Assembly: GCF_000024425.1 (NCBI RefSeq)
Contig: NC_013946.1
Span: forward strand, 806,001 to 870,000
DNA from: Meiothermus ruber DSM 1279
GTDB lineage: Bacteria > Deinococcota > Deinococci > Deinococcales > Thermaceae
Direction: 5' to 3'
DNA: 64,000 bases
Position 1 is the stretch's first letter. Each line of letters opens with the position of its first letter. A program made the position numbers and the translations under genes. Below are positions 2,680 to 57,690 of the stretch, piece by piece. The notes under the pieces were generated by a model. It worked only from the letters and a program-made list of their open reading frames with translations, searched no databases and was not told the DNA's origin.

Positions 2680-3018
2680 ATGCGACGCAAGATCACCCTA
2701 ACCACCTCGAGCCAGCTCGAGGGCTACCAGATTACCGAGTACCTGGACGTGGTGTTTGGCGAGGCCATTGTGGGGGCCAACATCTTCCGCGACCTCCTGG
2801 CCTCGGTGCGGGACATCGTGGGGGGCCGCAGCGGGGCCTACGAGGCCGAGCTGCGCAAGGCCCGCGAGATTGCTCTGGAGGAGCTCGAGCAGGCCGCCAT
2901 CGCCCGCGGGGCCGACGCGGTGATTGGCATAGACGTAGACTACGAGACCGTCGGCCAGGGCAACATGCTGATGGTCACGGCCTCCGGAACCGCGGTAAAA
3001 GCCAGCCGCAAGTACTGA
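2680..3018 (+). CDS. YbjQ/UPF0145 family protein
   Basis: A 112-residue protein of the YbjQ (DUF74, heavy-metal-binding-domain) family, of normal length. The family hallmarks are visible: an N-terminal [20 protein letters not shown] strand region, an [10 protein letters not shown] segment, a helical region with [16 protein letters not shown], and the C-terminal [16 protein letters not shown]. Despite the family name the function is unknown; members form pentameric beta-barrel-like assemblies. The start is the ATG preceded by GGGGGAGGAG. The gene diverges from lutA and converges on the DUF418 gene 12 bp away. Confidence 0.85.
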
Positions 3019-3030
3019 GCAGCGGTGTTT

Positions 3031-4128
3031 TCATGGCCGGTCTGGGTGGCTCGAGCCAGCCGGGCCGTAGGTGAACCTGCGCCACAACCATTCCAGCGGC
3101 CCCTGTCCGAAGCGCTCGAGCCACCACCGGCTCAGGGCCACCTGCAACATCACAAAACCCACCGCGATGAGCGGGAACCAGATGGGGCTCACCTGCCCGT
3201 AGAGCCCCAGCCCGTAGCCGTAGAACAGCAGGCTCATGGCGAGCGATTGCAGCAGGTAGTTGCTGAGGGGCATCCGGCCTGCGTAGCGCAGGGGGTGTAG
3301 CAGGCCGAGCCGGGGCCAGAACAGGCGAAACAGGGCCATATAAACCAGTGCAAAGGCCAGCCCGCCTAGCCCGCGCAGGGGCTGAAGATCGGGGTGCTGG
3401 GCGTTGTACCAGTTAACCGGAATGCCCACCAGCAGCCCCAGCGCCACCACCCGCCAGAGGGTGGCCGGCCCGATGCGCTGCCAGCACGGGGCCAGGTAGC
3501 TGCCCAGTAAAAACAAGCCCACCAGCTCGGCCCCGAACAGGAGCGAGCCCAGCACCGTGCTACCCAGCCAGGTCTCAAGCCGGGCCATACTGACCGCCCA
3601 GAAGCTTCCGCTGGCAAATACCTCGGCGCTGCCCGGAACGGGCGCCATATCGCGCAAAAAGAACACGAAGAGGCCATACAGGACATACCCCGCCAGCAAG
3701 AACTTGGTGATGTCCAGAAGCCGGTGTGCCTGGCCCAGGTAGCGCAGGCTGAAAAGACCCAGGAGGGCATAGGTGCCCAGGATGTCGCCCTCGAACAGCA
3801 AGAGGCCGTGCAGGGCCCCCACCCCCAGGAGCCACCCCAGGCGGCGACGCAGCAGCGCACGGGCCTCCAGGCCTGCCGAGACGAAACGCCGGTACTGCAA
3901 GGCCAGGCCCAGCCCAAACAAAATGGCAAAGATGGTATAGAACTTGCCGCTGAAGAAAAAGGCCAGAATCTCACGGCCCAGGGTGTAGTGCGCTGGGTTT
4001 CCATGCTGAGCGGCATACAGGCCAACCCCGGCGAAGTGCTCGAGGTTGACCGCCAGGATGCCCACCAGGGCCAGCCCGCGCAGGGCGTCCAGGAAAACAT
4101 CCCGCTGGTTTGGGGCAAGGGGTTGCAT
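3031..4128 (-). CDS. DUF418 family membrane protein
   Basis: A 365-residue polytopic membrane protein. The N-terminus has the RDVFLDALRGLALVGILAVN signature shared by DUF418 and acyltransferase-like (YeiB) proteins. About 9-10 hydrophobic segments follow, and the C-terminal DUF418 block includes the PLSNYLLQSL and GPLEWLWRRFTYG motifs typical of the family. The family is suspected to act in transport or membrane modification, but no activity is established. A leaderless promoter (TAGAAT, 6 nt before the ATG) overlaps the divergent dinB promoter. Confidence 0.85.
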   Translation of the reverse strand: MQPLAPNQRDVFLDALRGLALVGILAVNLEHFAGVGLYAAQHGNPAHYTLGREILAFFFSGKFYTIFAILFGLGLALQYRRFVSAGLEARALLRRRLGWLLGVGALHGLLLFEGDILGTYALLGLFSLRYLGQAHRLLDITKFLLAGYVLYGLFVFFLRDMAPVPGSAEVFASGSFWAVSMARLETWLGSTVLGSLLFGAELVGLFLLGSYLAPCWQRIGPATLWRVVALGLLVGIPVNWYNAQHPDLQPLRGLGGLAFALVYMALFRLFWPRLGLLHPLRYAGRMPLSNYLLQSLAMSLLFYGYGLGLYGQVSPIWFPLIAVGFVMLQVALSRWWLERFGQGPLEWLWRRFTYGPAGSSHPDRP

Positions 4129-13665: not shown

Positions 13666-13704
13666 AGGGTGCTGCTTATTTGGGCCCCCTCGATCTTGTC
13701 ATAC

Positions 13705-13827
13705 GCATTTCGGTGGTATCGTTTACTTTGACAAGCCTAAACGATACTACCGAAATGCTTTTCTACTTCCTTCGGTCGGCTTGAATCCTTCGCCTCTGAC
13801 TACGCAGGGCGGTGAAGGATTCAAGCC
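13705..13827. repeat. Dispersed double-hairpin repeat, copy A
   Basis: Two consecutive hairpins. The first has arms 13705-13725 and 13738-13758 (20 of 21 positions pair; core ATTTCGGTGGTATCG). The second has perfect 14-bp arms GGCTTGAATCCTTC (13778-13791) and GAAGGATTCAAGCC (13814-13827). Related copies lie at 39552-39606 and 57610-57690. It sits between convergent genes and could also act as a terminator. Confidence 0.85.
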
Positions 13828-13895
13828 AAAGCGGTATCATTGGTTTACAGCAAAAAACAGTTCGTTTGAGGCCTGTCGGTTGTCCGAGCGCCGTT

Positions 13896-39501: not shown

Positions 39502-39551
39502 GCTGTCTTCCGACGAGCCAACAAAATGCAGCATAGCACGAATGAACGGCC

Positions 39552-39606
39552 TGGAATCCTTTACCGCCAGGCCCGGTCAGAGGTGAAGGATTCAAGCCGA
39601 TCGAAA
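39552..39606. repeat. Dispersed hairpin repeat, copy B
   Basis: Inverted arms GAATCCTTTACC (39554-39565) and GGTGAAGGATTC (39582-39593), 11 of 12 pair, followed by AAGCCGATCGAA. It matches the second hairpin of copy A in reverse orientation. The first hairpin of the element is missing or decayed here. Confidence 0.7.
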
Positions 39607-39655
39607 TGCCTATAAGCGGGAGGCCCGTCAGTCGGGGTGGGTGGATTTATTCCTG

Positions 39656-49710: not shown

Positions 49711-50664
49711 ATGAACCACGACAGGATCGAAGCTTTGCTTGAACGGATTGCCCTTGCGCTGGAACAAATGGTTGCGCAGGCCAATCAACATCGCACCCCT
49801 AACGTTGCTTACTCCCAAAGTCACAGTGATACAGAAAAAACCAGCCTGGAGCCATCGAGCCGCAACTCCAACGCTTCCTCCCTTTCAATCCTGGAGCCTT
49901 TCCTTAAGGCTCGAGGAATCCAGATCAAAGTTCGCCCTGCCGAAGATGCGGCCGACCAGGTCATTGATAGCTTGTCGTTGTTTCTGGGAGAGCGCTACGA
50001 CGCCCTTGCGGGTCTTCTTAGCAAGATCAAGCGGGCCATGCAGACTGGGGCGCAGATCACCGAAAGCCTCAAAGATCGCCCGCAACAGGACATCAGCTCC
50101 GCTTGCCAATTCTGCACACGGCTTTACGAGGTGGCCTTTCTCGAGCAATATCAATACTTTCGATCGCCCACATACTTAATCAAGGCAAAGACCACCACCT
50201 TGCCAAAGGCCCAGCGCTTTTTCGGTGGGCAGTGGCTTGAACGCTTTATTCTCCAGAAAGTCAAAGCTGTTTATGCCCAGGCTAGTTCAGAGGTCAGTGA
50301 GCAATTGGCCTTCGAGTATCTTATCAACCCCCAGATCATCCTACCCAACGGCGACGATTTCGAACTCGACATCCTGGCCGCTATGGGATCGTCTATCTAC
50401 TGGATTGAGGCCAAGTCCGGCGACTACCAGCAGCACGTGGCCAAGTATTCCAAGTTTGCACGCCTTCTGGGGCTCGATCCCGATCATTCCTTCATGGTGC
50501 TAGCAGATGTGCCGGAGGATCGCTGCGAGGCACTCTCAGCGCTGTTTTCCATGACCGTTTGTACCCTGCGATCATTCGAGGAAAAGCTGCTAACAGTCGT
50601 GCGAAGCGACACAGCACAGCAAAGCGCTGCGGCAGATGGGTTTTCATCTACGGCTGGGCGCTAA
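49711..50664 (+). CDS. Stand-alone PD-(D/E)XK nuclease-like protein (DUF1887/Card1 nuclease fold)
   Basis: A 317-residue protein. Residues 1-25 are a helix, 26-60 a polar linker, 60-170 a mainly helical domain (KARGIQIKVRPAEDAADQVIDSL; FCTRLYEVAFLEQYQYFRSP). Residues 168-260 resemble the nuclease domain of Card1/Can2 (DUF1887): GGQWLERFILQKV, then FELDILAAMGSSIYWIEAKSGDY, with E/D and ExK (IEAK) residues spaced as a PD-(D/E)XK active site. No CARF sensor domain is present. It lies alone, AT-richer than its neighbours, next to IS debris. Function unknown; a defence or DNA-processing role is inferred. Confidence 0.7.
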   Translation: MNHDRIEALLERIALALEQMVAQANQHRTPNVAYSQSHSDTEKTSLEPSSRNSNASSLSILEPFLKARGIQIKVRPAEDAADQVIDSLSLFLGERYDALAGLLSKIKRAMQTGAQITESLKDRPQQDISSACQFCTRLYEVAFLEQYQYFRSPTYLIKAKTTTLPKAQRFFGGQWLERFILQKVKAVYAQASSEVSEQLAFEYLINPQIILPNGDDFELDILAAMGSSIYWIEAKSGDYQQHVAKYSKFARLLGLDPDHSFMVLADVPEDRCEALSALFSMTVCTLRSFEEKLLTVVRSDTAQQSAAADGFSSTAGR

Positions 50665-50790
50665 ATAGTAGAAGCCTCGAGGTACATCGCTTTATTTGTG
50701 GCTGAAATCCCGCGGCCTCAAGCAGTTGTTGTAGCTCAAGCCGAAAAACCTCGAGCTTGCTGGAGATGAGCCGACGCTGCCCCTTGTTTC
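50648..50790 (-). pseudogene. Unassigned gene fragment
   Basis: The minus strand reads for about 46 codons to a TAG at 50648-50650, ending LELQQLLEAAGFQPQIKRC then TSRLLLFSAQP, which looks like a protein C-terminus (helix-strand pattern seen in methyltransferase tails). No start or upstream part is present. Weak support. Confidence 0.25.
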
Positions 50791-50795
50791 CAGCC

Positions 50796-50834
50796 CAGGA
50801 TGGCAGGGGTGGGAGCCTGGTTGTCAAGTAGCAC
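50796..50834 (+). mobile_element. Tail of an IS related to the remnant at 39656
   Basis: CAGGATGGCAGGGGTGG (50796-50812) is identical to the minus strand of 39681-39697, and TCAAGTAGCAC (50824-50834) equals the right terminal repeat at 40136-40146. Only the transposase tail and one end remain. Confidence 0.5.
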
Positions 50835-50970
50835 TACTGTATGTAGCAAACGATTAACCAATCACAGAGCCTTGACAAAAAAGACAAAGTGATGGTAGAA
50901 ATCGGCCGGCGAATACGCCAAACAGAGAGGCTCAGTAATGGCCGAGAGCTATGCTAGCCCGAGTTGTTGC

Positions 50971-51222
50971 CTAGAAGGCGCCCTTCGGCAGGAGCATCAG
51001 GTTGTGGGACAGAGCAAAAAGGCGGATCCCCAGGGTCACCGCGTGGATCTGCCGGGAGGATCGGGTGTGGGTTCTGCTTCCTACCGTCCCCCCATATCCT
51101 TGCCCCACGATGGGCCTAGGCCTGATTCCGTGTCGTCCACCAAGGGGTGGAGCCTCGAGCCTTGGAAGGAGGCCTGTCGGCTGTCCAGGGCGCAATGCTG
51201 AACCTGGGTAAGGTTCTTTCAA
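50971..51222 (-). pseudogene. Possible second transposase remnant
   Basis: The minus-strand frame ends IHAVTLGIRLFALSHNLML then LPKGAF, similar in style to transposase C-termini (LALAHNL). The upstream part has no recognisable domain. The rest of 50665-51288 (about 620 bp) contains no other gene; a TTGACA at 50873 lacks a matching -10. Confidence 0.3.
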
Positions 51223-51288
51223 AGGCGAGAGAGATAGGGAGAGGAGCGATAACTTGGGTAATCCTAGTTTGTTTGGGGAGGTTTTCTT

Positions 51289-57609: not shown

Positions 57610-57690
57610 TTCAAGCCGACCGAAGGAAGTAGGAGTGCATTCCGGCAGTTTAGCCCTGCCAAAGCGAACGATACTGCCGGGATGCGTATG
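57610..57690. repeat. Dispersed hairpin repeat, copy C
   Basis: Begins TTCAAGCCGACCGAAGGAAG, then a hairpin GCATTCCGGCAGT (57637-57649) / ACTGCCGGGATGC (57673-57685). It aligns over its whole length with copy A (13705-13827) in reverse orientation, with compensatory changes in both arms. Confidence 0.8.

Follow-up and report, generated by a model that had tools for sequence, protein, structure and literature searches.

What might a nuclease of the Card1/Can2 type do when it is encoded by a lone gene and has no CARF domain to control it? Can2, Card1 and Cdn1 are seen as nucleases under the control of CARF, and the question is raised by a gene in the 64,000-nucleotide stretch of the Meiothermus ruber DSM 1279 chromosome analysed here (henceforth the window; positions 806001–870000 of the 3,097,457-bp single-contig genome). 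A sequence-only reading of the window had proposed that this gene specifies a stand-alone Card1/DUF1887-like nuclease domain without CARF, that it has a low GC content and sits by itself next to insertion-sequence debris, and that its product may be an independent defence nuclease or possess a new trigger domain. The gene and its upstream neighbour are as follows.

49711–50664, + strand: intact ORF, the CDS of a predicted CARF-less Can2-type PD-(D/E)XK nuclease of 317 aa
48320–49471, − strand: dGTPase gene (dgt), shown as context, its flank being the integration site; kept in 17 of 18 Meiothermus genomes

The 317-aa ORF is real and under purifying selection, with dN/dS values of 0.08–0.13 in comparisons with those relatives whose synonymous sites are unsaturated, and an in-frame stop codon on its 5′ side leaves room for no more than four additional codons. 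The GC content is indeed low, 53.9% in the nuclease gene versus 60–69% in its surroundings. The dGTPase gene is divergently oriented, and on the 3′ side the nuclease gene is followed by a stretch of ~620 bp (50665–51288). The description of this stretch as insertion-sequence debris could not be established, as it has no second copy in the genome, the 83-aa ORF in it has no match in Pfam, and no repeated IS copy downstream of the nuclease gene could be found in the genome. The isolation of the gene, on the other hand, was borne out by an all-against-all comparison of the neighbours, which revealed no conserved neighbour family. A short dispersed MITE-like repeat occurs elsewhere in the window (13697–13843, 39551–39613 and 57610–57690), and more copies of it, up to ~143 bp, are found beside the orthologous locus in genome G008.

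Taken as a single sequence, the protein matches the Pfam family PF09002 (Card1_endonuc) with an E-value of 0.093 and 12.7 bits, i.e. below the gathering score of 26.4, and a phmmer search against PDB is likewise weak (E 0.5); the best family member reaches an E-value of 2e-6 against PF09002. A profile built from 50 members matches Cdn1, Can2, Card1 and VC1899 with E-values between 5e-7 and 2e-5, with no other match below 0.001, and the PADLOC CARF_PDDEXK models match the window protein with an E-value of 4e-8, residues 32–242 being aligned with profile positions 110–299 of 364, so that the accessory region is included and the CARF part is left out. The AlphaFold model (pLDDT 91) comprises a helix at residues 3–26, a disordered segment at 32–55 and a single compact body from residue 58 onwards, and this body has the restriction-endonuclease fold that the sequence-only reading had called for, matching the nuclease half of Can2. 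A Foldseek search with the model yields an E-value of 2.7e-10, and VIA-align places residues 58–298 on residues 139–365 of Can2 (Z 17.6, rmsd 3.0, 200 residues aligned), followed by Cdn1 (Z 16.3), VC1899 (15.4) and Card1 (11.9), and then by Can1, with unrelated proteins at 8.0 and lower. Matches of residues 94–172 to ribosomal protein S8 (Z 7–8) were set aside as reflecting a common arrangement.

The putative active site points in the same direction. The GGQWLERF and ELD…EAK block that had drawn attention to the gene is present beyond chance, and its key positions are the following.

50239–50241, + strand: E177 of GGQWLERF, aligned by HMM with Cdn1 E274 of the Mg2+ network; invariant in 50 of 50 homologues
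50362–50370, + strand: E218-L-D220, corresponding to Cdn1 E308/D310 and SthCan2 E276/D278; invariant in 50 of 50
50407–50415, + strand: E233-A-K235, corresponding to Cdn1 E323/K325; invariant in 50 of 50

Thus none of the ELD and EAK residues has been lost: E177, E218, D220, E233 and K235, along with G173 and W175, show no variation among the 50 homologues, which come from many phyla. In Cdn1, Mg2+ is held by E274, E308, D310, E323 and K325, and the replacement of E308, D310 or E323 by alanine abolishes activity (PMC12825302); in SthCan2, the catalytic E276 and D278 belong to the ELD motif (PMC7969007). Profile, fold and all five catalytic residues agree with the proposed Card1/Can2-type PD-(D/E)XK nuclease without CARF, and sequence comparison and structure prediction together strongly support the ORF product as a true relative of Card1, Can2 and Cdn1. 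Since a CARF domain was looked for and is absent, the protein is not a member of Can2/Card1 in the strict sense, even though it resembles the nuclease half of Can2. Its predicted parts are these.

49717–49788, + strand: N-terminal helix, residues 3–26, LLERIAxALExIA, a predicted oligomerisation element (AlphaFold, column conservation)
49801–49881, + strand: hypervariable disordered linker, residues ~31–57 (pLDDT below 50 at 32–45 and 49–55; alignment)
49882–50202, + strand: accessory subdomain, residues 58–164, helices and two antiparallel strands (VIA-align, PADLOC)
50203–50640, + strand: PD-(D/E)XK nuclease core, residues 165–310 (profile, AlphaFold, Foldseek, structure alignment)

The N-terminal half had been described as a different helical domain, which needs to be corrected. 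Can2 and VC1899 contain an extra motif in which four helices are combined with two antiparallel strands (PMC7969007), and residues 58–165 of the modelled window protein fit this motif; the supposedly different domain is therefore mostly the Can2 accessory subdomain, i.e. part of the Can2-type nuclease half, and only residues 1–57 differ. A CARF domain of ~150 aa, which Can2 would carry upstream of the point corresponding to the linker, is replaced here by one helix and a disordered linker, and with 57 residues preceding the nuclease half the predicted structure leaves no space for a folded sensor on its N-terminal side. The helix has hydrophobic residues in heptad spacing (positions 6, 10, 13, 17, 20 and 24) and is conserved in the homologue alignment, whereas the linker is not, and many of the short forms of the family begin with LLERIAxALExIA; no other protein with a matching N-terminal helix was found in the same genome.

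The suggestion of a new trigger domain thus fails for the window protein itself, with its helix and disordered linker, and yet it finds support in the family at large, in which the place of CARF is taken by HicB-like, TIR or transmembrane modules. A long form from Thermaceae bears an N-terminal HicB-like UPF0150 domain (PF21748, E-values from 1e-9 to 1e-15) that a Pfam search does not find in the window protein; it is single-copy and near-universal in a Thermus-like genus. M. ruber has such a paralogue of its own, 364 aa long, at 2.74 Mb (G000:C1:2736213–2737307, equal to L032:8214–9308), with 30% identity to the window protein. The combination of a HicB-like domain with a Card1-like nuclease, seen also at L036:9290–10378, makes up an uncharacterised core protein of Thermaceae. 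Four other relatives, from three cyanobacteria and Desulfonatronospira, have a strongly hydrophobic N-terminal segment, and three from Chloroflexota have an N-terminal TIR domain (L099:5479–6699, L100:5434–6699 and L114:5479–6696); in the model of the L099 protein, residues 1–142 match the SARM1 TIR domain (Z 11.9) and residues 159–405 match Can2 (Z 17.8). By eye, in the comparison of L099 with SARM1, the TIR catalytic glutamate appears to be an alanine in L099 and also in L100. The HicB-like, TIR and hydrophobic-segment forms thus present the nuclease half combined with several N-terminal modules.

The distribution of the short form is patchy. Near-identical copies (93–94%) exist in two close Meiothermus genomes and a 72% copy occupies a different locus in a third; the position after dgt is filled by the nuclease gene only in the ruber/taiwanensis group, the gene being absent beside dgt in other Meiothermus. 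Further afield, a genome scan, in which the pattern-based count of short forms is a minimum, recovered them from cyanobacteria, spirochaetes, Chloroflexota, Proteobacteria, Planctomycetes, Bacteroidota and a Methanobrevibacter. In the phylogenetic tree, the window protein groups with sequences from a Gloeomargaritales cyanobacterium and a spirochaete (support 100/94) and then with the gammaproteobacterial Methylohalobius (95/89), while the Thermaceae long forms constitute a separate clade (98/87) apart from it. From this placement and the low dN/dS it follows that the gene is functional and horizontally acquired. A viral origin was considered and rejected, as the phage, plasmid and IMG/VR collections contain no relative and BFVD returned only weak generic nuclease folds. 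Among the sequences collected, Geitlerinema sp. has two members of the nuclease family in tandem (L119:210–1454 and 1687–2778), and copies split into two ORFs, which represent frameshifts or assembly errors, were encountered in a Roseiflexus MAG (L055:5965–6948), Thermus parvatiensis (L122:5713–6740) and Thermus JCM 17653 (L116:386–1455).

Because the nuclease half has been kept and accompanied only by a putatively self-associating helix, we favour a stand-alone, metal-dependent nuclease of a defence type. In Cdn1, cA4 bound in the CARF domain turns the nuclease domains by ~75 degrees, which creates the nuclease-dimer interface and the metal site, and the enzyme is activated by dimerisation of its nuclease domains (PMC12825302). 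By a model drawn from Can2 and Cdn1, a ligand in the CARF dimer would make the nuclease domains close as a dimer and form the cleft together with the metal site; in the window protein, self-association of the N-terminal helix may have taken over this assembly. The product would be a Mg2+/Mn2+-dependent and probably non-specific nuclease acting on RNA or single-stranded nucleic acid, its activity governed by dimerisation or by a partner of some kind rather than by cyclic oligoadenylate, and its likeliest role would be a single-gene defence of the abortive type against phages or plasmids. We infer the biochemical activity as well as the oligomerisation, the substrate, the trigger and the role in defence, and an independent defence role, as first suggested for the gene, is plausible. 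On balance, we lean towards viewing the protein, whose CARF-less Can2/Card1-type family has spread horizontally, as an N-terminally assembled, metal-dependent stand-alone nuclease with a role in defence or abortive infection. The loci with CARF-HEPN effectors, reverse transcriptase and Cas1, or methyltransferases described below speak for this view; against it stand the mostly ordinary neighbourhoods, the lack of relatives in the phage, plasmid and IMG/VR collections, and the near-universal long form of Thermus.

The gene neighbourhoods bear on two other explanations. Most of them are ordinary, and the survey of homologues for neighbouring defence genes proposed in the sequence-only reading paid off in part: a few loci do have type III CRISPR effectors, Cas1 or methyltransferases (in L073 a DNA methyltransferase gene precedes the nuclease gene by 12 bp, and L055 has another one nearby), but no partner is shared. 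An auxiliary nuclease serving type III CRISPR systems, switched on in trans when it docks to a CARF or Cas protein encoded separately, could account for the two CARF-HEPN (Csx1-type) genes adjoining L079, the reverse transcriptase and Cas1 genes adjoining L067, and the G052 long form that directly follows a CRISPR array and lies ~5 kb from a CARF-HEPN gene, and M. ruber itself carries Csm1 and Cmr2. We nevertheless regard this as quite unlikely: most family loci have no Cas gene nearby, and the window gene (at 856 kb) has no type III linkage, the Csm1-type Cas10 (G000:C1, 189128–191530) and the Cmr2-type Cas10 (1510119–1511429) both being more than 600 kb off. Co-occurrence with type III systems was dismissed as evidence because Cmr2 is present in 16 of 18 Meiothermus genomes, with or without the nuclease gene. 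As for the arrays themselves, the one in G052 is short, consisting of three repeats with a 78-nt period directly upstream of the HicB-nuclease gene, with the CARF-HEPN gene there being of the Csx1 type (L038:8082–8282 and 2782–3999), and a candidate array at L067 was discarded, its 47-nt repeats being in tandem without spacers. The gene might also be a lone addiction toxin on mobile islands, restrained by an unlinked or host factor, as in toxin–antitoxin systems. Genes of toxin–antitoxin type do lie next to several of the nearest relatives (PIN in L053, HicB and RHH in L054, Phd in L055, nucleotidyltransferase/HEPN in L056, ParE in L057, YefM-YoeB in L058), and a HicB-like antitoxin fold is fused to the nuclease in Thermaceae. 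Such genes were counted on six of 49 proximal sides of short forms versus one of 49 distal sides (one-sided P 0.056; mechanically selected loci, six further, hand-picked ORFs in proximal set A5 being left out of the count of six), an enrichment that is not significant and only suggestive; moreover, the short-form loci share no constant antitoxin partner, and the adjacent modules vary by locus and look like complete pairs themselves, which makes us consider the addiction scenario very unlikely. The ORF beside the nuclease gene in G014 (L035:8850–9389) is a chimera of an N-terminal SAM-like domain of phage integrases and an HI1420-type antidote/HTH domain.

The main rival arises from the long form being a core protein in Thermus: the family may serve as a housekeeping nuclease of DNA repair or recombination acting on DNA ends or branched DNA, with the short form as a transferred spare copy. 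Almost all Thermus genomes have a single copy of the HicB-like form, a distribution as compatible with housekeeping as with defence; its gene overlaps murJ in Thermus, lies between the argH/GNAT genes and carA in Meiothermus and, in another genus (L041), comes after sbcD-sbcC, and PD-(D/E)XK folds are frequent among repair enzymes. The short form, however, has moved between phyla, most Meiothermus lack or have lost it, it has no conserved repair-gene neighbours, and its closest relatives with an established function belong to the immune effectors, so we deem a repair function unlikely. The probability that the gene is a functionless, decaying copy of the M. ruber HicB-nuclease paralogue, truncated at its N-terminus, is close to nil. 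Such a paralogue does exist, and G007, G013 and G015 contain broken fragments, but the identity of the two proteins is only 30%, the gene groups with those of other phyla, its catalytic residues are intact and its short N-terminus is conserved across phyla; dN/dS and phylogeny contradict this explanation.

Beyond the defence-type nuclease favoured here, we tentatively entertain the broader and rather doubtful idea that the nuclease half of the Can2 type serves generally as an effector activated by assembly, well outside type III CRISPR, in which the CARF domain was swapped, depending on lineage, for a self-associating helix, a TIR or HicB-like domain or a membrane anchor, with the short form as a mobile one-gene defence and the HicB form as a core nuclease of Thermus whose part in defence has gone unnoticed. 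If there is such a conserved CARF-swapping family, the nuclease would be a reusable effector switched by dimerisation, and a candidate function would be at hand also for a protein found in nearly all Thermus genomes. Our literature search found no description of CARF-less forms, and an earlier mention is possible.

Among known systems, Can2 (SthCan2, PDB 7BDV; Thermoanaerobacter brockii Can2, 8Q3Z) has its entire post-CARF half in common with the window protein, the ELD motif included; the window protein differs by the missing CARF domain, and therefore by having no cA4 site, by its lack of linkage to type III CRISPR and by an identity of only ~14% over the structural alignment. Cdn1 (PDB 9U49/8Z4I), the top match both by sequence profile and in Foldseek, shares the five residues of the Mg2+ network but relies for its assembly on cA4 or cA6 in its CARF domain, in place of which the window protein has a 24-residue helix. 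With Card1 (PDB 6WXW/6XL1) the nuclease fold and the motif block are held in common (Z 11.9), the CARF domain again being restricted to the known enzyme. VC1899 (PDB 1XMX) shares its two C-terminal domains and is likewise unlinked to type III CRISPR; it retains a CARF fold that has lost the residues for cA4 binding (PMC7969007), whereas the window protein has no CARF at all. Finally, the window protein is devoid of PF21748 and was transferred horizontally, whereas the HicB-like/nuclease form of Thermaceae carries this domain and is vertically inherited, and the two have the nuclease half in common, with 30–41% identity and all the catalytic residues.
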